Source of the DNA: Styela clava
Taxonomy: Eukaryota > Chordata > Ascidiacea > Stolidobranchia > Styelidae
NCBI RefSeq assembly: GCF_964204865.1
Contig: NC_135251.1
Coordinates: 7,378,001 to 7,442,000, forward strand
Direction of reading: 5' to 3'
DNA length: 64,000 nt
The notes below the pieces were generated by a model. That model searched no databases. It saw nothing but the letters and a program-made list of their open reading frames with translations, and was not told the DNA's origin. Each line of letters begins with the position of its first letter. Position 1 is the stretch's first letter. Both the position numbers and the translations under genes were made by a program. Positions 4,608 through 63,309 of this stretch are shown in pieces.

Positions 4608-5261
4608 GGCTCGGCGGTGTGGCGCAACATGCTAAGCGTTAGGAATACTTTTGTCCAGTGGCGGCGCGTCAATAGGGCCAACCGGGGCAACGCCCCGGTT
4701 GTTTTTTCGGTATAATAAAAAATATTCGAAAAATACCTCAATATCGGTTGCACAGACTGTCTACACTAGCCATATTCTCCCGACATGGTTCATTTTTCGC
4801 TCGCAAAGCCTTCGCCGAACGTCGACGGGGCGACGCCGATTTTGCCCCGGTTGCTCATTGTATATCGTATTCTCCCTTTTATCTTCCACTCGCCGCGTTT
4901 GTCTCGTTTGTTTTCTGTTTCTTTCACTAAATCATCGGGGCTAGCCCCGAAATTATGACGACACAATGCCGACGTTTCTTACAACAACGTGTTGACATAT
5001 TCACGCATTCCTGCTCGTTCGTTGGTTGCTTGAAGAGTTGATAGTTTCCTCGCCTTCGTTTTTGTCGCTTGTTTCGCTATTTGAATCAGTTAGAGACCTT
5101 TAGTCCATTTGCTTTCGATTTTCCACATTCCTTTTGAGCTCCTCACTTCTTTCCGGCTTCGCATTTCTTAGCCTTAGACCTCATAATGAATAAGGTTGAT
5201 GCACTACTTCGCACTCCGTTTTCGCAGCTGCCGCTGGAACAAAAATTAGAGGTACAACGTC

Positions 5262-7348
5262 TTGGCCTTAGACCTCATATTTGAAGGCCCGAAGAGGCCT
5301 TATCAACCAAAAAATTGTTCACTGGAACAATCCCATGACGGAGGAAAGCGTCGGCGTACATTCTGCGCAGAAACTTGGTATAAAAAACACGAATGGTTGT
5401 GTTACAGCGAGGACAAAAATGCACTTTTTTGTTTTTATTGCCTACTTTTTGCTACCGCCCGTGACTCACGTTGGTGTAAATTTGGTTTTAGAGATCTTAA
5501 ACATCTTTCCGAGCGTGCCAGGGATCATCAATTCTTCTATGGAGCATCTGGACAATGCAGTAAAATACCGAACATTCGGAAATGTTAATATTGCAGCACA
5601 GTTGGATGAAGGACGCGCGGTTTCTATTCGTCGGCACAACCAAAACGTCGAGAAAAACCGCCATGTTCTCGGTCGATTGATAGATGTTTTGAAGTTCATT
5701 GGTTGTCACGAGCTGTCCCTCCGTGGGCACGATGAACGGGCTGGCTCTTCTAATAGAGGGGTATTTTTGGATATGGTGGAATACACCGCATCCCTAGATA
5801 CAGTATTGAGAGATCATCTTGATGCCGCAACTGTTTCGAAAGGGACATCTAAGAATATCCAAAATTATTTGCTCGACTCAATGTATAAAATTTATTTACA
5901 ACATTTGGCTCTGGAAATTGAGAATTGCCAGTTCCTTTCGATTCAGTCTGACGAGACAACTGACATCACGTGCGTTTCCCAACTGGCTGTGATTTTTCGG
6001 TTTGTGAAAGATGGTAAACCTACCGAGAGATTTCACAGCTTTGTACCAATCGTTGATCGCACGGCTTGCGGGATATCGGCTGCACTGAAAGAAGTGTTAC
6101 AGCCTTACAACGCGAAGTCAAAATTGATAGCTCAAACTTATGACGGCGCGGCAGTCATGAGTGGGTCGAAATATGGTGTTCAAGTTTATATAAAAGAAGA
6201 TTTCCTCATGCGCATTTTTTATATTGTTATGCACACCAATTTAACCTCGTTATTAAAAATATGTGTCTTGATACCCCTCTCGTCCGTATATTTTTTGCAA
6301 ATGTTTCGGGGTTTTCTTCATTTTTTTCCGTTTCGCCGAAGCGCTCTGACCTCCTTCGCCAGATATGTAGCCGCCGTCTCCCAGCTTGTGCACCAACAAG
6401 TTGGAACTTCCAATCACGCGTGGTGCAGGGCGTGTCCGAAATTATGTCTGAGCTCATTGAGTGTTTCAATGGCATTCAGAGCTCTCCGGTTTGGGACGAA
6501 CGCTCTGTGAGGGAGGCGGCAGGTCTAAAGCATCTGCTAGAAGATGATGAGTTTTCATTTTTTCTCGCTTTTTTCTCCACAATATGGATGGAGCGTCTGT
6601 GCAGTCGTGTATTTCAGACTTCTGCGATGCTGTATCTCGTATCCGCGAAACAATAAAATACGACGACACATGGAGTGCTTCTTTACGCCGCGGGCAAACA
6701 ACGCAGCGTTTGATTTTGTCTGCAAAGGAATGCTGTGACATTCTGGTGAATCAAATAGGCGATCGTCTGCGCACCTTGCCGCGTTCTCTTTGATGAACCC
6801 CAAAAAATTTTCAAAATTTGCACGTCAATTTCCCATCCATTTGTCCATCCAATAGGCGATCGTCTGCGCACCTTGCCGCGTTCTCTTTGATGAACCCCAA
6901 AAAATTTTCAAAATTTGCACGTCAATTTCCCATCCATTTGTTGGCTACTGTCTCCAAATTTTACCCCATGATAAACGTGGGTAAATTGGAAAATGAATTG
7001 CGATGTATATACACCAATCAAACTTTTTTGAACATCACATCAACTTGCGCGCTCTATGGGTTCCTCATAGATAACACTCTAATAACTACCTTTGCGGCGT
7101 CTGCAAAATTTCTGGACATCATTTTGACGACGCCTATTTCTTCCGCCGACGCAGAGCGAACATTCAGCACGCTGAAGCGTATTAAAACGTATCTCAGAAA
7201 CACAAAGAAGCAAGATAGATTAAATTCTTTGGCTGTTTTATCCATTCACAGAGACGTTATTTCTGGGATGCATGACTTTAATCAGCGCGTTATTGAGCAT
7301 TTTGCTTCCAAGAAACCGCGGCGTGTTGCATATATGTTTAAGCAGTAG
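5262..7348 (+). pseudogene. hAT transposase, frameshifted (ZMYM/TTF-type zinc finger class)
   Basis: Pieces of one hAT transposase lie in order in different frames. A TTF-type zinc finger is at 5340-5530 (RTFCAETWYKKHEW, then CFYCLLF). The RNase-H-like core is at 5580-6190 (LSIQSDETTDITCVSQLAVI, then YDGAAVMSG). A CYAH motif region after about 6195 is in another frame. The C-terminal hATC dimerisation segment is at 7030-7320 (SADAERTFSTLKRIKTYLRN). At least three frame changes separate them, so it cannot give a full protein. Similar proteins are annotated as ZMYM- or ZBED-like in animals. Here the terminal repeats and target duplication show that it is a transposon gene, not a domesticated host gene. 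Confidence 0.9.
6754..6940 (+). repeat. Tandem duplication inside the hAT1 transposase
   Basis: A 90-bp segment starting aataggcgatcgtctgcgca occurs twice with no difference that I can see, at a 97-bp period, joined by tccatcc. The sequence identity implies a recent event in this copy. Confidence 0.95.
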
Positions 7349-30567: not shown

Positions 30568-30817
30568 TTAGAGTCGGCGCTGGGGCAGAGTTTCGGGCAG
30601 GATGTAATGTGGCTCTGACGACGAAGAACAAGCAACGTATTCTCCTTCATTATGACGTAACACCGGGTTCATTGTAGTGTATTCAGTCTCACTCGTGACA
30701 GCTGCCGGATTATATTCACCAATTTCCTCGTAAATAACAGTGGATGCGTTAGCTGGTTGCGGGGTACCTAATTCTTGAATTGGAATCCCATGGTCTTCTT
30801 GTCGATGTACAAGTTTC
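30568..30817 (-). CDS. CUB-like receptor exon 5: cytoplasmic tail
   Basis: Begins after tatag with one base that completes Arg347. Encodes 82 residues to TAA, with five tyrosines in short motifs: VIYEEI, GEYNPA, TEYTTM, GEYVAC and PHYILP. The open frame and matching splice phase support the assignment. Confidence 0.78.
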
Positions 30818-33800
30818 CTATAAAATTATATAGTAGGTATAATATGATTAAAGTATTTACTTTTTAGCAGGTGCTTATTAAGCCTTTTTACCTTTAGGGC
30901 ACCTATTCACTCCTTTTACGTTCCGAAAAAGGCACGGCACGAGATTCAATGATTTATAACGATATGTAAGCTACACCCTGGGTGAACAGTGGGCATGGGA
31001 CACGAACTCAAGATGTGTTAAACTGCGATGTCAATACAGTTAAGAAAACGTTCCAACCTAAGGTCATCGCCTAATTTTATAAAGTTACGATATTTGTTAA
31101 CATATATAATGGCGTCAATGAAATCCGAAAAGTAGATCATCGGCATAAGAGACGATTTCCCGACTCAGCAAGATATTATAGCTGTCTTCACAAGTGAAAT
31201 TTTGCACTCGGTGCTATAAGCTACGGAAACCACGAAGGTTTTGGAATGAGTACCGCGTTTCCCCAAAAATAGGACTTGGTCTTCTTTCAATTTTCTTTCG
31301 AAAAATAACACTAAGGACTATTTTTGTGGGAGATGTCTTTTATATTTTGTTATCAAAGCAGAGAATTAAGAAATTTTCAAACATACAAAACATGGAAACA
31401 GATATCCATTTACTTATAAATAACACGTTTTTATTCATAATAACTGCTAAACATAGGTTATTATTCATTTAAAACGTGTAGGAGAGATTTCTTGCTATTG
31501 ACTAGGTCAAAATAAATTTCGCGCTATCGACTAGGTCTTATTTTGAAGGGAGGGCTTGTTTAATTATCATTTTAAAAAAAGAGTTTTTTTATTTTTCAGA
31601 CAAGCTCTTATTTTTGGGGTAACACGGTATGTCATTGTCTAGATTAGGTGTTTTTGAAACCGACTACCTAGGTAGGCGGAAGGAACGTAGTACCAGGTTA
31701 GAGTTTGGCCATAATTTCAGGTACAAATACTACGTGAGTCTCTCGGCTAATCCCCGAACTTGTAATAGAACTAAAATAAGTAATATTGAAAAAAAAAATT
31801 ATGGCCTTACTCTAACCTGGTACACATACTACGTTCCGGTGTCTGCCATCTTGGTTCACACACTACGGGAGTACTAAAATATTAACTTGATACCATACAC
31901 GAGGATAACGTTACTTATAGTGAATTAACTGCGATTTCAAATACGCAACTCTAAATTTATTCTCCAAATAGGGTGAGTCTACTCTCAACGCTGCGATGAA
32001 ATGTTGTAGAAGTTACAATGCGATAGTGAATTACCTTTTCTTCCAATGAATATAGACTCCGACCACCACGATTTGCAATATGAATGCGAACACAATTGAG
32101 CCGACAATAATCCCGATGGTCAGGTAAGGTATGGCCGCAGGATCATCTTCCGATTGGTCGGTAGAAACCAGATCATTTACTGATTGGTCAGTAGGTTTGA
32201 GAGAATTTTGTGATTGGTTAGTTGGTTTGAGAGAATTTTGTGATTGGTTAGTTGATTTCAGAGAATTTTGTGATTGATTAGTTGGTTTGAGAGAAGTTTG
32301 TGATTGGTCAGTAGGTTTGAGAGAACTTTGTAATTGGTTAGTTGGTTTGGGAGAAGTTTGTGATTGGTCAGTAGGTTTGAGAGAACTTTGTAATTGGTTA
32401 GTTGGTTTGAGAGAAGTTTGTGATTGGTCAGTAGGTTTGAGAGAACTTTGTAATTGGTTAGTTGGTTTGAGAGAAGTTTGTGATTGGGCAGTAGGTTCGA
32501 GACGAAATTTTCTTCGAATCGTAGTTGTGGGTAAGGTGGTTGTTGTCGAGGTCGACGTGGTCGTTGGTGATTTCAATGGTTTACCTGAAAGTTTAGATTA
32601 ATATAAAATTATCGTATGTTATGGACCGTATGTATGGATCAGGTAGTGTTTTATGCTCTATTGCAGGGGTCGGCAACCTGCGGGCCGGATTCGGCATAAA
32701 TGGCAACAAAACACAGAAAAGTTGATGCTAAGTGCAAAGGGTTCAATAGCGTAAAAAATATTCAAATGGGATTAATATTTTGAGATGCAATGCAATGAGG
32801 AAATAAATCTATATTTTATTCGAGAGATGTATCACTGCTTGATTTTATCATAAAATGGACCTCCTGAAGTATGCGCACCAATTTGTTGCACAACCTGAAA
32901 TCAGGTTGTGTACCAAGTTAGGGTTCAGGTTATGCGATATCTTGGACTTCAGGAGTACCATAAAAGTATCATCCGTTCGGTTTACAACTTTCTAAAAATA
33001 TGTGCGACCCCTGCTTTGTCGCATACAATCAATAACGGTACTCCTGAAGTATGTGCACAAAGATGTCGCACAACCTGAACCCTAACCTGGTACACAACCT
33101 GAGTTCAGGTTGTGCGCCATCTTGGTGCGCATACTTCAGGAGGTCCCTTAAAACCAGTACCGGTATTTGCGTCTTATGGTCCGAGGTGTTTTCGTATGAA
33201 TAAAAACCCAATCGAAATTTATTGACCGTTGGTCTCTTAATACAGTGCGCAGTCCGCGCTCTGAATTTCGTACAGTTTGTGTCCATATAACTGTATCGCA
33301 ATAACACCCAAAGGATGTTAGTAAAATCACACCAAATACGAATAAATCTTAACATGTCCAGTGGTGGTAAATTTGCTCAGACGTGATTTTAATTCTGAGT
33401 GAATGCGCGTGGCCTTACTTGAAGCAAATTCGTATAATAAAGTAGGATATAGACTCAGCTGACATGAGCAAACCACAGTAATTTGATCTGGCCCGCTTGA
33501 TTCTACCACAACCAAACTAACAAGAGAGCTATGCTAAAATATATGGACACGTAGAGTCACATAATTTTGATGACGTCATAGCGAAAAAAAAAGTAATAGC
33601 CTTCTGGAGAAAAATTTTATCTTCAACCACTGAAAATTTCAAAGCAATTGGTCCAGTATTCGAAGAGAAAAGCGACTTTTTAAAAACGTGTCAAAGAACA
33701 ACAACAACAACAACAACATAATATTGAAACGATCGTTATGTTCACTACGTGTTCAAAAACAAATTTTGATGTTTTAGCTAAAGAAATAGCCCAAGGAATT

Positions 33801-36800
33801 TGTTGAGATTGCGATTAAATTTAGTTTGGACACGAAGCGTATTGCTTTCCACTCTTGCTTATGTAACACTGTGAATATTGTTAGCAAAATGTAACTTTTT
33901 ACGTCACATTTAAATGGCCGCCAATCTAGTTGAGCAAAATTGCTTTTGGTCCAAAAACCTTGCACACCTCTGCTATAGAGCGCGGACGGAATTCCATAAA
34001 ATTATTTTACCTGTTACACAATCAATATATTCGTAGGACATCTCAAACTGCATTGCAGTGGGTTGACAGTGGTACCGAATGCTCGTATCAATTTTATTAA
34101 ACGCCCAACCATTGGTTTGGCAATTCATTCTTAAAATTTGATCCAAGCAGAGATTAGAATTGTACGAAACCCAACATTCCTGATCATTTGTCGAGTTGAA
34201 GTTGATGTAGTCGCTCCGCATGCAGCCTGAGTTTAATGAAAATATTTTTATTACTGTCGCGAGGGGGGGGGGGGGGGGGGGGCATAAGACGGCTAAATCA
34301 TATCGCAAACGTCCGGTTATCAATTCACGTGGGGTATGAGGAGATTAGTGAGACAGTTCTTTGGGTACTCCTGAAGTATGCGTACCAAGATGGCGGACAC
34401 CGGAACGTAGTATGTATACCAGATTAGGGTTAGGCTATAATTTTAGGTACAAATACTACGGAAGTCACTTGCCTAGTCCCCAAACTCGTAATATAACTAA
34501 AATATAGAAAATTGGAATAAAATTATGGACTAAAACTAACACATACTACGTTCCGGTGCCGCCATCTTGGTTGGCATACAACAGGAGTACCAATATTTTC
34601 AATACTGTTATAGGATAGCGTATATATACAAATTATCTCCGGGGGGTGGCAATTTGATAAGATGGCTGAGTCACATAGTAAACCCCGGCCGCTTTTCCGC
34701 TTACCGATTCACGTCGCCAATTCAGTTTGCCAGTTATTTGTTACCGGGAGCATGGACTTGGTGGGGACCAAAATTTAAAACGGTAGGATATTAGCGGATC
34801 CGGAGACGGAGCGCGCGCAAGAGGCCAATACCGGTACGTATTATCGAGATACCAGCATGGTTAATTAAAATAACAATCCTTCCTCAATGCCTTTGCGCTA
34901 GTGGACCCGTATGCGTATATTGCAAGGATGCTGTAGCAGAAATGAAAACACCATAATATGCAATTCAATTGCAATGCAATTGTTGTAAACTGCTGAGTTC
35001 GCAGGTTCGAATCCCATGCAGGGATGGTTATGTGCGAGAGGATTGCTGGCAGTGGCGTAGCCAGCCCAAAATTTTGGGGGGGGCCAAATTTGAAAATTTT
35101 AGAAATTATATTGGGTTTAAAACACCGTTCTTCAAGCGCAAAACAACAACAGTTGGTCACCAAGCAAACTGATTCAATTACTCAGCTGGATTTTTGTGAA
35201 TACAAAATCCATTAATAAACAATTTTTTATTTGAAACAACAAATATTAACAACGCAATTTGAATAAGTAAAATACATCGCCCCAATTAAAAGTCCATCCT
35301 TCGCTTCCCGCCAACTATGCTCGACACAACTCGATTAATTTTCTCCTCGGTGACCATTTCACGGTGACAGTGAAGCACACACAAATCAGAAAGGCGATTG
35401 GACGTCATTGATGAGCGCAGCCATGTCTTTACCCGTTTCATGCATGAGAAAGACCGCTCAACCTCAACGGCGGTTGCTAGTAGCGTCATAACGATCTGTA
35501 TTGCGGTGTACACGCTTGGATAATCTCGAGCGCTCAGAAGAAGCCCCTCCAAACATTCGTCGTTAACGTTGGAACTTAAAGAAGTTCTCCACAGTCTCAC
35601 TTCATTCTGGAGGTTATCCAATAAATACAGACGCTCTACCTCATCCACGTGAACTGGTTTGTTCGGTGGAAGAATTAATAGCAATGAAAAAAATGATGGG
35701 TTGTCAATGAAGCGTTCCCGAATAGAGCAGCTCAAGCCGTCGACGTATGGGAGATATACGGAACGTTTAAAATACTGGGATGCTGAATCAGCACAGACAT
35801 TGTCGCGATAAACTCGTACTTCGACTACTCTTTCAAGCCAGCTATTTCACAAGCTTCTTTGTAAATATTCAATGCGATTTCAGAGTCATTGCGTTCTTCA
35901 GCGATAACGCTCTGAAGAGAGGATGTGAGGTTCTTTACTGACAGCACACTGACTCCGACCGCCTGAAGTGCGCGCGCTAGTGGCTCCATTAGTGCCGAAT
36001 ATCGACCAATCATACATACGGCGTAGATAACTGACGACTTTTCTAGAGCAGATTTCAGAGAAAAAGCCTTCGCCCGCGTCTCACTGTTAGCATCTCTCGC
36101 CAAAGAATCAAGAGCCTCAAGTACTCGTTTGAAGTTGCATTTGAAGATTCGGATGCTCTTGTACTTCTCAGACCATCTGGTGGGGTAGAACAAAGGGATG
36201 TTAATTCCTAAACCTGCGAGCCTTTTAGGGCTCTTCCTGAAAAATCGAATAGCCTCACGAATGATATCACAGGTGCTTCTGATGATTGCAACTTTACTTT
36301 GGTCATTTATGACCAAATTCAAACAATGAGAAGCGCAGTGCACAAATATTGCGCGCGGGTATTCATCACGAATGCGTTTTTGCACACCGCTGACGGGACC
36401 TGCCATTGTCGTTGCACCATTATAGCCTTGCCCCACAAGTTTTTGCAAATCCACTCCTATACCAGAGAGGTGGGTCAAAATATTTGAGGAAATTGATTCG
36501 GCAGAAACAGAATCCATTTCCACTAATCCTGTGAAGCGCTCGCACACTTCACCACCTTTCACATACCTCAAAACGATGCTTAGTTGTTCTTTCCCAGAAA
36601 TATCACATGATTCGTCGGCTATTACGGACACAAACGATTTATTAGCCTCCATAACGATATCTTGCACTATCATGTTGCTTGCTACCTTGAGAATTTCATT
36701 TTGTATCATCGGGCTTGTATACTTAGCGTTTCCGGCCATTCGAGCGAAATGCCTTTTCAAATCTTCATCCCCTGCGTCGATACGAAATAGAAGAAGGTTC

Positions 36801-37755
36801 ACAAAATTTCCACTATCCCCGGAATGTCCGCGCAAGGGTATGTTACCCGAAGCACAGAACATGACAGTCTTGACAATGGAAGTCATTATTCGTCTGTTTT
36901 CTTTTGTTTGCGTAGCATATTGGGCCTCCATGTTTGCACGCACATTTTGACCAGTTTCCATGCTTTTGACAAAATTTTTCGCAGCTATATTTGATTCTCG
37001 GTGGTAATTTGTGTCTCGGTGTGCTACAGCCTTCTCCATAAATGTTTTGTAGTCAATGCATGGTCTTGTAACAAAGGCAGTGTCCCTGAGAGTTCCATGC
37101 TTCAGACGTGCTTGCATGACTATGCATATCTTACACAAACCACCCCCATCAGAGAGTTGGGTGTAAACTAACCAACTGCAAAATCTGTTATCGTCAAGCC
37201 ATCTTTTGAGAAATTTACGACGACTTTGTCTAACAGTATCCAGAATCGTCACGTTTTTCGGACCATCCGAAGTTAGAAGCCTGTATCTCTCCGCATCGGT
37301 AAGCTGTGTATGTTTCTTAAGAATAAATCCAAGATCGTTTGTTTTCCCTTCGTTGATTATTAGTTCATCTTCGGGAATAGAAGTGATAGACGTAACTGAC
37401 GTAAGTTAACCAGTGCATCCACAGCCTGAGAAGCGCTTATTGATGTATTTGAGGAAAGCGAGTCTTTATTTCGCTGAAAAAAACTATCGAATTTCGCCTG
37501 TTTAAATTTAGCCATCGAAGTAATTTGGTCATCAAAATCCAAGCGTTTCGAATAAAAATACGGCGAGAACAAATCAAGACCGAGTAACTGACCGAAAGCT
37601 TGCGAAACACTTTTTCCCATACTGCTCGTAAGAGTGAACGGTCAAGTCTTTGTGACGTAACAATGACAATCAGCAAGCGTGACGAGACAAGATGCCACAA
37701 AACTGGTGGATTAGGAATGGAATTCTTGAAAATTTTGGGGGGGGCCATGGCCCCT

Positions 37756-37787
<32 letters not shown>

Positions 37788-39357
37788 GGCTACGCCTATG
37801 ATTGCTGGACTCCTCGCCGTCGTTGAATGGTCCACGTAACCGCTGGTCGGTTACGGCTTCCTCCACCACCAAGTCCATGCTTCCGAAAACAAACAATATA
37901 ACTAATCCCATACTCGACTTGGAATGGTAACCGGACGAGAGGCCGTGGTTCGCCATATGGATATGCCGTCTTATCGGCTTTCCTCTCCCCGGGATAAATA
38001 TGTAAAATCCTATCCTAATGAAATCTGATTTTGACGGTCGTCGGACGATTTGTGTTAGTGTGTAGCAGGACTCTTGAATTGCATATTAGACATAATAAAG
38101 TTAGGACATAATAGTAACTCAATTTAATCCTGAAAAAATATATTTTAGTAAAACTTACATCCGCCACCTAGTCGTATCAGGTTTCTTTCTTTCGGGATAA
38201 ATTTTGTAGAAAAGTTGATTCGGAGCATTGAGTTAACTTTTTTAACTGGGTGTTTGAAATCCCATGCACAATTTTCAGTAGAACTTTGCCTACAACCATC
38301 TGCCGACACTGGACTTCGAATGGTTCCCTTCATACCGTATACATTTCTAATAGTGGGGCAGTCGCCGTTACAAGTGCTGAACACTGCAAAATATGTGAAA
38401 AGAATTTTATTACCTTATTGAAAAAGTGTCTCTAAGATTTCGATGCGACACATAAATAAAAGGATCATATTTTGTTACCTCATTATCTTATTAAGTTTTT
38501 TTTTTTCAATTTTTAAAGGATGAGGAATTTAAAAAAATGGGGACATCAGATCAAGTGATGTCATCTTTTATGACGTCACTAATTTATTAGGAAAATGTCC
38601 CAAAATATTTGAGGCATATTTAAAAAGTGGTGACGTCATATTTTGTGACGACATTAGAGTATTGAGAAAGTATTTCAAGTTTATTTCGACTTCTTGACAT
38701 CACATCAGAAAATGCTTCAAGAATATTTGAAGGGGGTGGGTGGGTTTGAGTATAAAATTCGATCTTCAAGTCATCATTGCGACGATCGATTTTCAATAAT
38801 TCAAAAAATAATAGTTAGGAAACCTAGTTCATGCACTTTAGGAATCTATACATATATAAGGGATCACTGACTTATGATGACCATTTCTGGTCCTTCATGA
38901 CTTCCTGTCAATTGCAATGAAATCCGTTACTGTAATGCATAATTTTTTATCTGTTGTGAATTTTCGTTGCTATTTCTTGCACGACGAAATAAACGTATTG
39001 TCTATTGTCTATAAAGCTTTTTCTCCACTCGGGTGGTTTATATACTAAATGGGACGAAATTAGCGCATTAAAAAGAAAATTTTTAAAAATTATCTTAAAG
39101 TGTTTTCAAACGATGTAATTGAAAATCATGAATAATTTTGTCTAAATTGGGTAGCTAATTACGTAATCGTTTTAATAACTTAGAAGAATACATTTGAAAA
39201 ATATTGATAAATATTCTCCTCGGGTGACTTTCGGGGTAAATGGGACGAATTAGTGCAAAAAAAAAACTTTCGTTAATATAAAGAACAGATAAATATTGAA
39301 AAACTTACCCGTCATGAAAAACAGAATAATTCCGATTCCCCTGATTATCACGGTCAT
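30568..39357 (-). CDS. CUB-like, repeat-stalked receptor with ITIM-like tail
   Basis: Five exons joined by canonical splice sites, with phases that all fit (1,1,1,2), give 429 residues. Residues 1-20 are a hydrophobic signal peptide (MTVIIRGIGIILFFMTVFST). Residues 21-163 are a cysteine-rich ectodomain with a CUB-like start: CPTIRNVYGMKGTIRSP, then CAWDF and RINFSTKF. N-glycosylation sequons are at N73 and N102. Residues 165-194 are Thr-rich. Residues 195-314 are twelve decapeptides of the form T(D/N)Q(S/L)Q(T/S/N)SLKP. Residues 316-342 are the membrane span, followed by HWKKRK. The tail 348-429 has VIYEEI (Tyr376, ITIM pattern), EYTTM (Tyr393, YxxM), Tyr382, Tyr407 and Tyr418. This layout fits a cell-surface signalling receptor, perhaps immune or recognition-related; that role is inference. 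I do not recognise an orthologue. Confidence 0.78.
31251..31629. mobile_element. MITE with taccgcgtttcccc end
   Basis: 379 bp with ends taccgcgtttccccaaaaat and ttatttttggggtaacacgg, same family as 11700-11957. It contains 'gactaggtc' repeats. Confidence 0.78.
31650..31874. mobile_element. Fold-back family copy
   Basis: Contains ggaacgtagtaccaggttag, 'aatccccgaacttgtaat' and the right arm acgttccggtgtctgccat, ending actacgggagtac. The left end is diverged. Confidence 0.75.
32035..32584 (-). CDS. CUB-like receptor exon 4: stalk and membrane span
   Basis: Completes a split Gly codon after actttcag and ends at aaaag|gtaatt. Encodes a Thr-rich stretch, twelve decapeptide repeats and the hydrophobic segment YLTIGIIVGSIVFAFILQIV plus VVGVYIHWKK. 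Confidence 0.85.
32133..32492 (-). repeat. In-frame 30-bp coding minisatellite, 12 units
   Basis: Twelve 30-bp units with no frame change, arranged partly as 60-bp pairs (TNQLQSSLKP alternating with TDQSQTSLKP). Units nearest the membrane are most diverged; the central ones are nearly identical. Confidence 0.95.
32664..33013. mobile_element. hAT-type MITE with an inner fold-back insertion
   Basis: Left caggggtcggcaacctgcgg, right ttctaaaaatatgtgcgacccctg. The interior matches 15764-16195 inverted, except for an inserted fold-back element. Confidence 0.8.
32865..32957. mobile_element. Fold-back element nested in a MITE
   Basis: Left arm ctcctgaagtatgcgcacca, right arm atatcttggacttcaggagt. 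It interrupts the match between two MITE copies. Confidence 0.75.
33038..33147. mobile_element. Short fold-back element
   Basis: Left ggtactcctgaagtatgtgc, right gcgcatacttcaggaggtcc; the inner arms share cgcacaacctgaa and ttcaggttgtgcg. Almost wholly palindromic. Confidence 0.85.
33520..33757 (-). mobile_element. MITE family M copy
   Basis: Reverse of the copies at 25078 and 26381. It begins caagagagctatgctaaaat and includes 'gatgacgtcatagcg' and 'gcaattggtccagtattcg'. It interrupts sequence resembling the MITE at 28238. Confidence 0.8.
34011..34226 (-). CDS. CUB-like receptor exon 3: ectodomain
   Basis: Phase 1-1 exon between actcag and gtaaaa. 71 full codons with six cysteines in CMRSDYINFNST, ECWVSYNSNLCLDQ, RMNCQTNGWAF, YHCQPTAMQFEM and YIDC (the Cys92 codon is split with exon 2). 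It may complete the CUB-like fold or be a separate small domain. Confidence 0.78.
34262..34281. repeat. Poly-G tract
   Basis: About 20 consecutive G, followed by a SINE fragment. Prone to length error in assembly. Confidence 0.9.
34282..34360 (-). mobile_element. SINE fragment
   Basis: Contains cataagacggctaaatcata and gtccggttatcaattcacgt, the SINE 3' part. The rest is replaced by a fold-back element. Confidence 0.65.
34364..34592. mobile_element. Fold-back element, near full length
   Basis: Left ggtactcctgaagtatgcgt and accaagatggcggacaccgg; right tccggtgccgccatcttggt and caggagtacc. The central 'cctagtccccaaactcgta' is present. Confidence 0.88.
34640..34764 (-). mobile_element. SINE fragment
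   Basis: Degraded 3' part: gataagatggctgagtcaca, 'accccggccgcttttccgct' and 'gcatggacttggtgg'. Confidence 0.6.
35286..37620 (-). pseudogene. hAT transposase (TTF-type), two frame breaks
   Basis: Three overlapping open stretches together cover a whole hAT transposase. The N-terminal part is at 37620-37360. The main 475-codon part is at 37252-35825 (open from further upstream), with FCSWLVYTQLSDGGGLCKIC, VIADESCDISGKEQLSIVL (catalytic Asp region), QGYNGATTMAGPVSGVQ and HCASHCLNLVIN. The C-terminal hATC part is at 35735-35286 with VEVERSFSCMKRVKTWLRSS. The three lie in different frames, so one indel near 37400 and at least one between 35735 and 35830 are needed; small introns are an alternative. 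Coding quality is much better than in hAT1, suggesting a younger insertion. Confidence 0.92.
37758..37786. repeat. Poly-C tract in hAT2 right end
   Basis: A cytosine run of about 28 bases, shortly before the terminal ctggctacgcctatg. Likely unstable. Confidence 0.9.
38159..38383 (-). CDS. CUB-like receptor exon 2: ectodomain
   Basis: Phase 1-1 exon between ttgcag and gtaagt. Encodes TCNGDCPTIRNVYGMKGTIR, then SP, CRQSSTENCAWDF and LRINFSTKFIP. The GTIxSP plus CxW spacing is what suggests a CUB domain. Confidence 0.78.
38384..39308. other. Receptor intron 1
   Basis: AT-rich, with several gacgtcat motifs (38540-38650) spaced loosely. A tail-like attgtctattgtctat repeat near 39000 follows an aaataaa and may mark a LINE 3' end. 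No gene. Confidence 0.4.
39309..39357 (-). CDS. CUB-like receptor exon 1: signal peptide
   Basis: ATG plus 15 codons and one base before g|gtaagt. Encodes MTVIIRGIGIILFFMT, a hydrophobic leader. It is the only nearby start that joins exon 2 in phase. Confidence 0.7.
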
Positions 39358-41674: not shown

Positions 41675-43330
41675 AATCAATATATCCGGTATTGATAATT
41701 TTGACTCTTTGCTAACCGGATTAGTCATCAATATTCTAAACGCGATTATGGTTTCGTGGAATTTTGGAAAGTTCGCCAGTGGCGTTTTGTGTATTACCGT
41801 ACCGTACAGTATTATGTGTATGATTTTAAAATGTTTTGTTTACATGCCTGTATGCCTAATCTATAAACTAAAATAAATCTAATCTTTAAATGGTATTCTA
41901 CAAATTACAACATGGAAAATCGAAATGGACAATTTGACTGGAAATTTCAAAATTGAACTGGAATATCAAAATCAATCAATCAATTCGACTAATGATGTAA
42001 AATGGGGATTGGGTTATATGTTTTCGTTTGTATACTTTTTGTTATTCTTATTGCGGATTTATAAAATTGTGTTTTCCTGTTTTTTCTATGCAAATGTTTA
42101 TTTTCTTGAAATGGGATCTAATCAAATTTTAATTCGATCAATTAGAAAAAAAAGGTGGCGTTTTGTTTGATTACGGTTATTAATTTTTGTGTGAGGATCG
42201 AGTGGTACCGGTATAGCCTAGTTCTCCATATTTCAGTATTTTTCAAGAGTTATTCAATCATTTGATAAAGTCCTATCCTAATGATATCTTATCCTAGAGT
42301 GCTTTTCGAATTTTTGAGAAAAAAAATAAACTTTGTAAATTATGAAATTCAGTGTTTTGATCACTTTTGGCAGTTTGGTACAGCTGCCAATGAATATTTG
42401 AAGAAATATATTATTATTATTATTTGAAGAAATGTTTATTTGTGATATTTAGCATTCGAAATAAACTAGACCTATTTATTTCTGATTGACGTTGAAAATA
42501 ATCAAATTACAATTTATTAATTATCTCTTATACAATTCTCAACTGTTCTTAATTCGTAATTTTAGATTTATGCATGTTCTGTGTTCTGGTATTTAACATG
42601 ACCTAATTCAGCAATTTCAGAATTAGAGTTTATTCTGTTATTCAATGACTGAATGAATAATTCAGAATTGTAAATTATTCGAATCTGCTGATTCAATGTT
42701 GTGCGGCTAATCATGTTCAAATTATCTTCAGCATCTATCTTCTCCCCTGGGATAAACTTGTAAAACTGATCCTACTGTCCTATTCTAGTATTTCCCCTCC
42801 TCCTAAAAATATCACTCTGCTAGCTATTGTGGTTACTCTGTCTCATCAATCAATCATTTATTTCGGTACTCTGACAAATAAACAAAAAAGTAGACGAACA
42901 AACAAAATCCAGAGATACCTGGAAGGCGAGCATAACCTAAAATGAAGTTAAAAAACGTAAAAGTACGCGCCCGCCCACCAAAAAAATAATAATACAATAA
43001 TACAAAAAAACACGATTCAGAATCGGGCAATGCTTTAAGGGATCTGTGAACAACTTAGACAAAATATAACAAAATTTAGGGAGATAAATTAAATGTAATT
43101 ATTGTGTAATTGTTATTATGTAATAAATTATTTGTTATATTATTGTCGCTTTTTCCTGTTTTGCTGTGTTTGTTATGTCTGTATGTAAAGATAGAGCAAT
43201 CAGACTAAATTTATTTATTTAACAAGCATTTTCTATTCTATATAGTCGCAGTTGTATTTTATTAAAGTTTTAAATAAGTTTATTTTATCCTGTTGCATCT
43301 GTGTGAGTTGCGCTGAAATCTTTAGAAAAA
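41675..43330. other. Upstream of ABCB8, no gene seen
   Basis: Very AT-rich, with ATT repeats near 42412. No complete mobile element is recognised. It presumably includes the ABCB8 promoter. Confidence 0.45.
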
Positions 43331-45433
43331 ATGAATTTTTTATTACGAAATGTTTGCCAGCATCGTCATGGAGTGAATCTACAAACTTTAAACCGAGCAT
43401 TTTTTCAACAAAATGTAAAATTTGGTACTAAGGATCAAAAACTGTTAATGAGAAATGTCGCCAGATTTTTAAAAAGAAGGAAGATATCAATAAATGGTGA
43501 AAGATTTAGAAAATATAAACAACTCAGCAAAAAGCTATTAGCTTGTGGGACAAGTCTGGCAACTATAAATCTACTAAATCTGTCAAAGAATTTGAAAGTT
43601 TTTTGTGCAGAACCTGAATATGTTGCACAAAGTGAAATTAACGAAAAAACAGAACAAGAAACTACTTCATATAAGCAATGGTATGACTTTTTCATCAAGT
43701 ATATTTTGCCTCAGATTTTTCCTCTGTTGTTAGCAATCGCAAGTGCTTTTGGGGCATCTTTTATCAACATTCAAATTCCACAATTATTGGGAGAATTAGT
43801 GAATCTGCTTTCAAGACAGATAAACTCGAATCTATCGTTCGCAGATTATGTGAATATATTTCAAGACTCATCCTCAAAGCTACTTTTATATTATCTATGT
43901 CAAGGTGCTCTCACTTTTATCTGTATCTCTCTATTAAGTAATGTTGGCGAGCGCATCGCTTGTGAAATGCGGAAAGATCTGTTTTTAAGTCTTTTAAAGC
44001 AAGATATAGCATTTTATGATGTCCACAAAACTGGGGAACTTATTGACCGCCTAACCTCAGATGTGCAAGATTTTAAAAGTTCTTTTAAAGTTTGTGTTTC
44101 ACAAGGATTAAGAAGTTCATCACAGACTATCGGATGTATTTTTTCTTTGTATAAAATATCATCAAAGTTGACGATGCTGATGGCTATTGTGATACCAGCA
44201 CTTGTTATAATCGGTGCACTTATGGGGGCATATTTGCGACATTATTCACGCAAAGCGCAAGACCAGATGGCATATGCAACGTCCTTCGCAAATGAAGCAA
44301 TTGGAAATGTTCGTACGGTTCGGGCTTTTGCGATGGAGACAACCGAACTTGAAGCATATTCTGCGGAGATTGAAAAAGCAAAAGATTATAATCAAGCCCT
44401 TGGAATTGGTATTGGTGCTTTTCAAGGGATGACAAATATCGCTCTAAATGGGATCGTATTAGGAATGATATACTGTGGAGGTTTTCTTGTGTCTTCATAC
44501 GGAATGCAGCCTGGAGAATTGATGTCATTTTTAGTCGCATCGCAGATGATACAACGCTCGCTTGCGTCTCTTTCTGTACTTTTCGGATCCGCAATACGCG
44601 GCGCTGAAGCAGCTTCAAGAGTTATGGAATATATTGAACTAAAACCAGAAATGAGTTTAACCGGTGGTTGGAAAATTCCACATTACTCTTTAATAGGAGA
44701 AGTGGAGTTCCATAATGTTCGTTTTTCATACCCTTCTCGGCCAGATTGTTTAGTTTTGAAGGATATATCTTTAAAACTACCACCGTGTAAAGTAATAGCT
44801 CTCTGTGGACTTTCTGGAGGCGGCAAATCGACTGTTGCCAGTTTAATAGAAAGATTTTATGATCCTACTGCTGGAAAAATCACCCTCGATGGAAAAGATT
44901 TAAAGAAACTTGACCCTTCCTGGTTACGAGAAAAGGTCATCGGCTATATAAGCCAAGAACCTGTTTTATTTAATACAACGATAGCTGAGAATATACGGTA
45001 TGGAAAACCGGACGCCACGGACGCAGAGATTATGGAAGCAGCAAAACTTGCAAACGCCGAGCAATTTATATCAAATTTCCCGAACGGGTACGATACAATT
45101 GTCGGAGAGCGGGGGTTATCTCTTTCCGGAGGGCAAAAACAACGAATCGCAATTGCTCGGGCGTTAATTAAAAACCCAGCGATTTTAATTCTCGATGAAG
45201 CTACAAGCGCTCTAGATGCTGAGTCAGAACGTTTAGTACAAGAAGCGCTTGATCATGTCATGGTTGGACGAACAGTCCTTGTAATCGCACACAGACTGAG
45301 CACAATACAAAATGCAGATATAATTGCTGTCGTTTCAAACGGCCAGATTGCAGAAATAGGCTCACATTTTGAACTTCTGAGATCGGGCCAGATTTACAGG
45401 GAATTAATAAGAAGACAGGCTATGCTGAAGTGA
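43331..45433 (+). CDS. ABCB8: ABCB8-like mitochondrial half-ABC transporter, single coding exon
   Basis: 700 residues (human ABCB8 about 735). The N-terminus is rich in Arg/Lys and poor in acidic residues, as in a mitochondrial presequence. A transmembrane domain (about 120-430) is followed by a nucleotide-binding domain with all motifs: A-loop Tyr467 ([10 protein letters not shown]), Walker [10 protein letters not shown] (493-501), Q-loop SQEP (541-544), signature LSGGQ (598-602), Walker [13 protein letters not shown] and H-loop His654. ABCB8 works as a dimer in the mitochondrial inner membrane and has been linked to iron export and an ATP-sensitive potassium channel complex. The [19 protein letters not shown] and [12 protein letters not shown] segments favour ABCB8 over ABCB10 or TAP. 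The absence of introns is odd compared with the vertebrate gene. The start is the first ATG after an in-frame break. Confidence 0.92.
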
Positions 45434-59917: not shown

Positions 59918-60252
59918 GAAATATTATATCAGAATTAATTTTGAACTTTTCTTGGTATTCTGTCTTTTTTGTTGTTTTATTATATTAGCTATTTGCCTGT
60001 CACATTCAGATAATCATGGCTGCATGGTGAGTTGGCTTCGATGACGGTCTGGTCGTATCACTCCCTCCTGTCTATACCGAACTAATTTATTACTTGTTAT
60101 TATTTTTATTATTACGATGACTGTTATTTTATTTCGGTTGACGAAAAAATAAATCACTCTTTCTCCATTATTGTACAATTTACGATAATCAGATATAGGA
60201 ATCAACACATCTTTTAATTCCTGAAACAGAAAGGGGATTGTTGTATTGAGCA

Positions 60253-60720
60253 ATGCTGCTGAGAAAGATTGATAAACTGTTGTTTCGTAGCTTAACTAGA
60301 ATTACAAGAGGCATTACAAGCCCAAGTTTATCAGAAACGTCAAATATTGATGATGATGACCATTTTGCAGATCCGGGAGCCCCCAGAGTCGCAATAACAA
60401 AAGACAGAAACACTATAGTACTTTATCACCCACAAGAAAAAGTAAAGTATGAAGACACTATCCCAATACCAAGAGATGATCCAAAATATTCTGCTCACGA
60501 AAATTTAGAATCTTTAGTGCGTGAAAAGTTGGACAATCTTGATATTGCAGATAAAGCACTGGATAAACCGAATATTCAAAATCCTTGGCCGATGCGTAAT
60601 AAGGAGACAATTCCTGTTATGATGCATCTTTCTAATCTATTTTACACTTCTAAACATTTATGGTGGCCGAAAAGAAAAGACTCAAGGCCACCTATTGAGC
60701 CAGACAGGCCAAGAGAATAA
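60253..60720 (+). CDS. MRPL42: Mitochondrial ribosomal protein mL42
   Basis: 155 residues in one exon (human 142). The N-terminus (MLLRKIDKLLFRSLTRITRG) is basic and hydroxyl-rich, as in a mitochondrial presequence. The conserved core is present: RNTIVLYHPQEKVKYEDTIP with IPRDDP corresponds to human [20 protein letters not shown] with PRPDP. The C-terminal LSNLFYTSKHLWWPKRKDSR corresponds to human [20 protein letters not shown]. mL42 is a component of the mitoribosome large subunit. MTF1 lies 963 bases downstream on the same strand. No intron was found. Confidence 0.88.
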   Translation: MLLRKIDKLLFRSLTRITRGITSPSLSETSNIDDDDHFADPGAPRVAITKDRNTIVLYHPQEKVKYEDTIPIPRDDPKYSAHENLESLVREKLDNLDIADKALDKPNIQNPWPMRNKETIPVMMHLSNLFYTSKHLWWPKRKDSRPPIEPDRPRE

Positions 60721-61165: not shown

Positions 61166-61683
61166 GTTATGCCCAAAGTGTTTTTTCCAAGGACTTTAGT
61201 TTCCTGGAATGTACTGTCTTATACTGATATTCTGATTGTATTGACAAGTCAAATTTTGAATATTTTTACATTTTCTCTGTGTTTATTAGATATGGAAGGA
61301 TGATACCATGCTGCTTGTTTCATGTTAATTTATTCTTAAAATCAACAAACTTGCAATGTTTATATCTGAATAGCCAAAAATAATGCCTATGCCAAATTAT
61401 TCTCTGAAAAGTTTAAAATAAATCATAAGGGTAAATGAAAAAAAGGAAAAAATGTTCACATTCAAACAATAATTGTGATTTTCTGAATCCTGAACGGTCA
61501 TTTTTTCTAAAGAACATTTTCGTTCTATGAAATTTTATTCATACACACACATTTTTTCTTGTTTTATGGAACGTATCCTAAGACATTTGAACATTATCTT
61601 GTATTTCTGCAAAAATGTGAATTTTTCATTCAGATGTAAATTAATTAATTATTAGCAAATTATTTAGTCTATTTGCTCATCGA

Positions 61684-63309
61684 ATGAAGATGGAAAAACA
61701 TTTTATGAACAGCAACCAATCTACTAGAACAACGAAAAAGAATTTTCAATGCCAATATCCACAATGTGATCGGACCTATTCAACAGCTGGAAATTTAAAA
61801 ACTCATCAAAAAACGCACAAAGGGGAGTACCAGTTCACATGTACAGTTGAAGGATGCGGAAAAGCGTTTTTAACAAGTTACAGTTTAAAGGTTCACGTTC
61901 GTGTACACACTCGCGAAAGACCTTACGAATGTAATACTAGTGAATGTAGAAAATCGTTTAACACTTTATATAGACTTAAAGCTCATATGAGAGTCCATAG
62001 CGGTGAAACATTTAATTGCGAATCCAATGGGTGCGTTAAAAACTTCACAACTTTAAGTGATTTACGAAAACATTTTCGCACGCATACTGGAGAAAGACCA
62101 TTCCATTGCACAATAAAAGATTGTAAAAAGGCTTTTACCGCGAGCCATCACTTAAAATCCCATGTTTTAACCCACACAGGAGAACGCCCGTACTCTTGTC
62201 AAAAAGACGGTTGTAATAAAGCATACACAAGAAAAGACACTTTACGAAACCATATAAGCAAAGGCCATGAAAACTCGAAAGGTGATTCGGTGGTGGTTGA
62301 CCCAAACAGCGGTCTTTCTGTTCTTTTAAATTCTTTAGACTCGATATGTGAACAAATTGATATATCTGAGTGCTTTGATACTGATACAAATGAAAGCACC
62401 GTGGACCAATCAGATTTGCCTATGTGTTCTACGAACCGAGATAACAATTCAATTGGCAAAATTTCCAGCAAAACAAACCAATTTGCACAATCTTCAATCG
62501 ATGATCCAAAATACAGAGCTCAAAATGAATTCACGAATCAACAACAAAATGATCCACATGGTGGCGTTGTGAATGAATTTACTGATCATCCACAAAGAGT
62601 TGAAGATATCCCGCTATTACAACATTCTTGCCCTGATGTTCACTGCAATGAAACATCTTTCCAAAATCCTCAATCTCAAATAGGAACAAGTTCTTTTCAA
62701 AATAACATCCCACAGTTGCCAGATAAAAATAGCATGTACAATAGAGGAGAACCCCAGTTTGAAACAAATTTTCCTCTTATCCCAGACCAATCTGGCAACC
62801 TTAGTGGGATTCCTGAATATCCCGTTGCTATGCCAACAAGCTCTCAAATTCTCATGGACACGGAGAGCCATGGTGACGTTATGGGTACGCCACAAATCGC
62901 TGTGAAGACCATTCCTCAATTTTCTATTGAAAACTTACCAAATATTGCCATGGAAACAAACCATGGTGTCGGTATGGAAACCGATACTTCCATGATCACA
63001 GAGCCTAACGTTTCCATGACAACAGGGCACTCAGTTTTTATGGAACCGCAAGTTACAGCAACGCACACAGTCTCACAAGAACCACTTGAAGATGAGGAAG
63101 AAATCAAAACTATCGCAAAAGCTGCGATGCAAGCGCTTAAAGAAACTACCGTGCAAGGAGTTCCGATAATCATTATTAAAAAAGAGAGTAAAGAATCCTG
63201 CGGGTGTAAATGTGCACACTCTGACACAACTAACAATACCGATCCTACTTCGAATACTATAAATGCGAAGGTTGTAGTTTTGACTCAACCAAATGATCAG
63301 GAATCATGA
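61684..63309 (+). CDS. MTF1: MTF-1, metal-responsive transcription factor
   Basis: 541 residues in one exon (human 753). Six C2H2 fingers sit at residues 23-45, 53-75, 83-105, 112-134, 142-164 and 172-195, with MTF-1-specific sequence: [76 protein letters not shown] and [23 protein letters not shown]-1 binds metal response elements under zinc or cadmium load and activates metallothionein and zinc-exporter genes. The middle is Gln/Asn/Pro-rich and low in conservation, followed by an acidic patch ([20 protein letters not shown]) and a cysteine cluster CGCKC (residues 506-510), which matches the vertebrate CQCQC type needed for metal-induced activation. Finger 6 has an H-x4-H spacing. No introns, unlike vertebrate MTF1. 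Confidence 0.95.

Follow-up and report, generated by a model that had tools for sequence, protein, structure and literature searches.

A Styela clava gene from an expanded family of predicted single-pass receptors with a cysteine-rich head and a conserved YEE[I/V] tail site

A five-exon receptor gene and its relatives

We analysed a window of 64,000 nucleotides from the ascidian Styela clava (RefSeq assembly GCF_964204865.1, 376.6 Mb in 379 contigs; contig NC_135251.1, here contig C2, positions 7378001-7442000), whose minus strand at window positions 30568-39357 carries a gene for a predicted cell-surface receptor. The five exons (39309-39357, 38159-38383, 34011-34226, 32035-32584 and 30568-30817) measure 49, 225, 216, 550 and 250 nt in that order; all four introns are of the GT..AG type, the cumulative exon phases are 1,1,1,2,0, and the spliced frame of 1290 nt comprises 430 codons including the stop, encoding a protein of 429 aa. 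The initial annotation, made from the sequence alone, had proposed these exons, splice sites and phases (1,1,1,2), and all were borne out exactly.

After its hydrophobic start, the predicted protein has a head rich in cysteines, then a Thr-rich segment followed by a repeat stalk, a membrane span and a tail encoded by a single exon. Exon 1 supplies the ATG and most of the signal peptide (hydrophobic MTVIIRGIGIILFFMT, consistent with the hydrophobic hydropathy windows at aa 1-19) and ends in phase 1 at the donor GGTAAGT. Exons 2 and 3 encode the N- and C-terminal halves of the head, a module of two exons that starts and ends in phase 1; the former, with its GxIxSP and CxW pattern, is 30-36% identical to relatives both clustered and dispersed, and the latter, whose last residues are EYIDC.TG, is 32-56% identical to its counterparts. 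Exon 4 encodes the Thr-rich segment, the stalk with its 30-bp tandem repeat of 11 copies (32181-32510; ten-residue repeats of SLKPTNQSQN type) and the only membrane span, which lies in hydropathy windows aa 311 to 346 with a core at about 315-340, aligns with the spans of relatives and is placed at 32064-32132 (about aa 315-337). Exon 5 encodes a putative cytoplasmic tail of 82 residues followed by the stop, with five tyrosines: one in VIYEEI (aa 374-379; 30721-30738), one in YTTM (aa 393-396; 30670-30681), and those at positions 382, 407 and 418; near the C-terminus, YILPET (30589-30606) corresponds to DYI[T/V/Y]PE of relatives. The signal peptide, single span, stalk repeats and tail tyrosines named in the initial annotation are therefore all present. 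If the last intron were retained, the phase-2 AG/GTRA donor would place a stop right after KKR or KNR, both at window position 32035 and at the exon 4 donors of relatives, and the product would be a receptor without a tail.

A genome search with the 165-aa head, which scores the best candidates only so that its counts are lower bounds, matched at least 37 places at E <= 10, at least 31 of them at E <= 1.9e-4. Among the 37, two belong to the receptor gene itself, 19 fall in a 0.3-Mb cluster at 8.99-9.29 Mb of contig C2, about 1.6 Mb from the window gene, ten lie elsewhere on that contig (near 0.77-0.78, 5.69, 10.02 and 29.56 Mb) and six are on contigs C3, C18, C4, C1 and C9, those on C1 and C9 being weak. 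Relatives carry labels unconnected with the contig names: A-D for the cluster, E for 10.02 Mb, F for 29.56 Mb, G for 0.77 Mb and H for 5.69 Mb of contig C2, I and J for contig C3, and K for contig C18. They were modelled from the DNA around the matches, with exon ends chosen among AG/GT sites under the phases of the window gene and, for some exons, with the second-scoring splice site taken by homology; their identical phases are thus partly imposed, and open frames and AG/GT sites did exist at the homologous places. Tail exons were located by tblastn in the same DNA. A tail query against the whole genome gave 13 places; apart from the gene itself, all of these were exons encoding membrane spans, most with E between 5e-4 and 0.01, and a search of viral contigs for relatives gave 43 pattern matches, none of them confirmed.

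In nine relatives (B1, C2, C4, C5, D1, F1, F2, G1 and I1) both head exons, the stalk and membrane exon and the tail exon are open, and all share a two-exon Cys-rich head, a Thr/Ser-rich stalk, one membrane span and one tail exon. Their recovery answers the question of paralogues that the initial annotation had raised, and it supports the single-pass surface receptor with Cys-rich head, repeat stalk and tyrosine-bearing tail read there from one gene. A 43-nt phase-1 signal-peptide exon (MNRI...) lies upstream in five of the ten non-window genes scanned (B1, C2, C4, C5 and D1); the exon sets of A1, H1, J1 and K1 are incomplete in the DNA examined. The window head shares 26-46% identity with ten other heads, seven cysteines are invariant in the 11 heads and an eighth is present in 10 of 11 (D1 lacks one conserved cysteine), and the window gene keeps all eight. 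A tree of the 11 heads groups G with I and separately unites the F pair; the window gene, whose branch is long, falls with the cluster at 93/90. Divergent relatives share this arrangement of parts, which confirms that the predicted layout is more than a chance one, and the locus is one apparently intact member of an expanded family of predicted cell-surface receptors. At contig C2:772083-781370 the pair of exons 2 and 3 occurs twice in succession ahead of a single stalk and tail, which suggests a gene that may have two heads in tandem; EPDYAPPENI-type motifs are repeated in its tail.

Several copies are broken: D3 has an early tail stop, B2 lacks a GT at the exon 3 donor, exon 3 of C1 and both exon 2 and the tail of C3 are truncated, the D2 frame is broken within exon 2, and E1 contains stops. 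Such losses, the distance of the window copy from the cluster and a transposon in one of its introns would fit a decaying outlier, structurally open yet unexpressed or non-functional. We consider this very unlikely, since the 1290-nt frame is open with usable splice sites, the eight aligned head cysteines are kept, and in the head of the window gene versus relative C2 the non-synonymous rate (dN) of 0.483 is below a nearly saturated synonymous rate (dS) of 1.719. The transposon, a minus-strand hAT-type element at 35050-37800 with DUF4371 and Dimer_Tnp_hAT matches, lies between perfect 8-bp duplications ATTGCTGG (35042-37808 in all) and inside another dispersed repeat, and the two frames that encode its transposase overlap in different phases. 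It is wholly within intron 2 and the spliced frame is open, so that disruption of the receptor gene by this element was ruled out.

Rates of substitution, pairs with G2 being left out for a misframed exon 3, differ among pairs. Between G1 and I1 the head shows dN 0.430 and dS 0.347 (dN>dS in 788 of 1000 bootstraps), whereas the tail shows dN 0.167 and dS 0.429 (0 of 1000). Head changes number 10 non-synonymous and 2 synonymous in C2/C5 (697/1000 bootstraps) and 5 and 0 in F1/F2. Against fast-evolving heads stand the head ratios of 0.13 for B1/C4, 0.38 for B1/C2 (0/1000 bootstraps) and 0.63 for B1/D1, the last with a tail ratio of 0.92. Because the pair values disagree, they suggest faster heads in some pairs only. 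An immune or self-recognition role may be inferred; clustering and broken copies fit it, and the dN/dS values are only suggestive.

The Cys-rich head and the CUB question

The head had been called CUB-like in the initial annotation, a label that stays unconfirmed. In its favour, the N-terminal half reads GxI/VxSP...CxW, a pattern as in CUB, and profile alignment of the family to eight PDB CUB sequences with hhalign gave a score of 23.1 and E 0.0033 over 34 columns of that half, at a probability of only 9.7%; none of 100 column shuffles reached this score (maximum 17.7) and the reversed control scored 13.0. On the other side, the Pfam CUB model (PF00431) matched neither the window protein nor the 11 heads at E <= 10, a PDB sequence search of the head returned no significant match (the hit had E 0.98), a CUB profile scan of the genome found no family locus among 150 scored places of 350 candidates, and alignment in global mode was poor (probability 0.5%). 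The resemblance is weak and confined to half a domain, and the head is possibly a very divergent CUB domain. Compared with CUB receptors such as neuropilin and cubilin, the family shares the GxIxSP...CxW pattern in the N-terminal half and the module spread over two exons; it differs in that none of the profiles applied gave a significant CUB match. Of the CUB pieces that the scan located in this genome, many span about profile positions 1-62 or 58-110, indicating that CUB domains are often split near the middle here as well. Dense arrays of ordinary CUB domains or exon pieces occur on contigs C19 (9355475-9389392) and C3 (8181604-8222605).

Tail motifs and a possible Src-docking role

We compared 18 tail exons including that of the window gene, many of them recent duplicates of one cluster. 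YEE[I/V] is present in 16 and absent from two: in C3 the tail exon is truncated ahead of it, and the stop-containing copy E1 reads YEKV instead. The residue two positions before the tyrosine (pY-2) is V in the window gene, L in D1, S in D3, R in G1, H in I1 and J1, and P in ten. In 2000 shuffles of the window tail, YEE[IV] arose 17 times, YxxM 119 times, an immunoreceptor tyrosine-based inhibitory motif (ITIM) 407 times and YxxP 734 times; YEE[IV] was chosen for this test after the relatives had been seen. RPLPDPP or RPLPTPP stands just before the site in five of the 16 tails (B1, C1, C4, D3 and F2), and [DH]YIxPE occurs in 9 of the 18 tails, window gene included. YxxP sites are found in 11 of the 18, with six in the tail of G1, a number reached by 7 of 2000 shuffles. 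YxxM occurs in six of the 18 (the window gene, B1, C1, C4, D1 and, downstream of its stops, E1). It takes one of two positions, and only the window gene has it at the YTTM place; B1, C1, C4 and D1 end in EYIPMKSVQFRSAF in place of [DH]YIxPE. The H1 tail (contig C2:5687544-5688285) contains four NxIYDDTGTAPP repeats and a fifth copy, IYADTG.

The sequences show the gene structure, the family membership and the conservation of the head cysteines and of the YEE[I/V] site, and we propose, at a probability of about 0.55, that the encoded protein is a single-pass receptor whose tail docks a Src-type kinase, rather than an inhibitory one. The phosphorylated pYEEI is described as the classic Src SH2 ligand, and the N-SH2 domain of SHP2 as requiring a hydrophobic pY-2 (PMC7337045). 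The family keeps Src-type and not SHP-type features, because EE is retained and the hydrophobic pY-2 needed by SHP2 is not. In the proposed sequence of events, each step of which we infer from motifs, the Cys-rich head on its probably glycosylated stalk would bind a ligand, and receptor clustering by that ligand would lead a Src-family kinase to phosphorylate the tail. YEE[I/V] would then dock a Src-family kinase through its SH2 domain, helped in some relatives by RPLPxPP through the SH3 domain, and the docked kinase would phosphorylate further tail tyrosines that may recruit adaptors, of the Crk/Nck type at YxxP and of the phosphoinositide 3-kinase (PI3-kinase) type at YxxM in some copies. 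The likely output would be activating or cytoskeletal signalling, for example in adhesion or uptake by blood cells, and the copies would differ in ligand and adaptor.

The main rival is an ITIM-type inhibitory receptor, in which phosphorylated VIYEEI would recruit SHP or SHIP phosphatases and YTTM the p85 subunit of PI3-kinase. The window gene fits both formulas, as the initial annotation had pointed out, the cluster copies D1 and D3 fit at pY-2 too, and four open copies end in YIPM. An amphioxus receptor with the ITIM-like sites DDYATV and HDYSEV, which lack a hydrophobic pY-2, is described as inhibitory and as binding SHIP1, and SHP1/2 less (PMC8211107), and ascidian allorecognition co-receptors are reported to carry ITIMs (PMC12065747). 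Against this, P, R or H occupies pY-2 at 13 of the 16 YEE[I/V] sites while EE is kept, and a chance ITIM is common in the shuffled window tail. Only 3 of the 16 sites have an ITIM-legal V, L or S at pY-2, YxxM is limited to six of the 18 tails, and the pair was rejected as a family signature; we hold the inhibitory reading to be unlikely, though not negligibly so. Distinctly less probable to us is a mainly adhesive or mucin-like surface molecule whose tail tyrosines would serve trafficking or cytoskeletal anchoring without dedicated signalling: all groups do have long Thr/Ser-rich repeat stalks varying in length and sequence, yet it is the tail site that is conserved and not the stalk sequence.

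For Src docking we also count the G1/I1 pair, in which the tail is constrained and the head is not. Several points weigh against it. Since the cluster copies are recent duplicates, independent support from tails comes from about four groups (the window gene, the cluster, the F pair and G/H/I/J), and dN/dS is mixed for pairs other than G1/I1. The window tail has no RPLPxPP and a single YxxP, no more than expected from the shuffles, and in most single tails YxxP is likewise not above shuffles. YEE[I/V] fits other SH2 domains too, the window gene itself conforms to the ITIM formula, and both Src docking and the signalling it would start are read from sequence motifs.

Other features of the window and comparison with known systems

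Elsewhere in the window, a second DUF4371-type (hAT) transposase stretch at 5250-7348 is split over several frames. On the plus strand, an ABC transporter in one open frame (43307-45430), which resembles mitochondrial ABCB10, lies head to head with the receptor gene, followed by an MRP-S32-type protein (60250-60717) and a C2H2 zinc-finger protein (61645-63306). An Rfam scan of the window gave 0 matches. Outside the window, a GH6 domain match above the Pfam cut-off (E 1.5e-6, 35.4 bits) on contig C9 belongs to an apparent multi-exon gene with a hydrophobic frame upstream; in animals, cellulose synthases fused to GH6 are known in tunicates, so the match fits a tunicate genome. A search for COX1, made for the mitochondrial code, gave no match.

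A full-text literature search, covering titles and the starts of abstracts with most subscription journals outside its coverage, found no description of the receptor layout. Among invertebrates, tunicates are the nearest relatives of vertebrates. Within the group, one comparison is with the haemocyte glycoprotein of Halocynthia roretzi that bears immunoreceptor tyrosine-based activation motifs (ITAMs), A74. It is described as an ascidian blood-cell membrane protein with tyrosine motifs and PI3-kinase signalling in aggregation and phagocytosis, and it differs, on a comparison by description only, in its two ITAMs (PMC5465252). In mechanism rather than family, the proposed Src docking resembles p130Cas, whose Src-binding domain is reported to contain RPLPSPP (PMC2956669), cf. 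RPLPxPP of five tails, and which has YxxP sites for Crk/Nck (PMC2956669, PMC2689226); p130Cas is described as a cytoplasmic scaffold with 15 YxxP, whereas here a predicted transmembrane tail has 0 to 6. A similar plan is seen in the Fester co-receptors (FcoR) of the ascidian Botryllus schlosseri. These are described as type I receptors encoded by a large germline family whose members cluster in one region and whose tails carry alternative tyrosine motifs (PMC12065747). FcoR heads are reported to consist of IgV, sushi and IgC2 domains (PMC12065747), compared here by description and not by sequence, and neither the window protein nor the 11 heads had an Ig or sushi match in Pfam.

A broader and tentative idea, to which we give a low probability, is that the cluster at 8.99-9.29 Mb of contig C2 and the dispersed members form a tunicate-restricted complex in which diversifying Cys-rich heads of unrecognised fold and alternative tails are combined on one Src-docking core. 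Such a complex would add to fuhc/fester and Themis as a germline system of recognition, in which a swap of the C-terminal module (DYITPETLP versus EYIPMKSVQFRSAF) would give activating and modulatory versions. Vertebrate-type tyrosine signalling is reported to be reused by ascidian allorecognition receptors whose heads are unrelated (PMC12065747), and another expanded family that pairs a head of its own with a conserved core for kinase docking would add an independent case. Its members would supply candidates for the discrimination of self, non-self and microbes by tunicate blood cells. The receptor family is one unrecognised by the libraries used, predicted to work like the known expanded phosphotyrosine receptor families, with a head for which Pfam and PDB gave no significant match.

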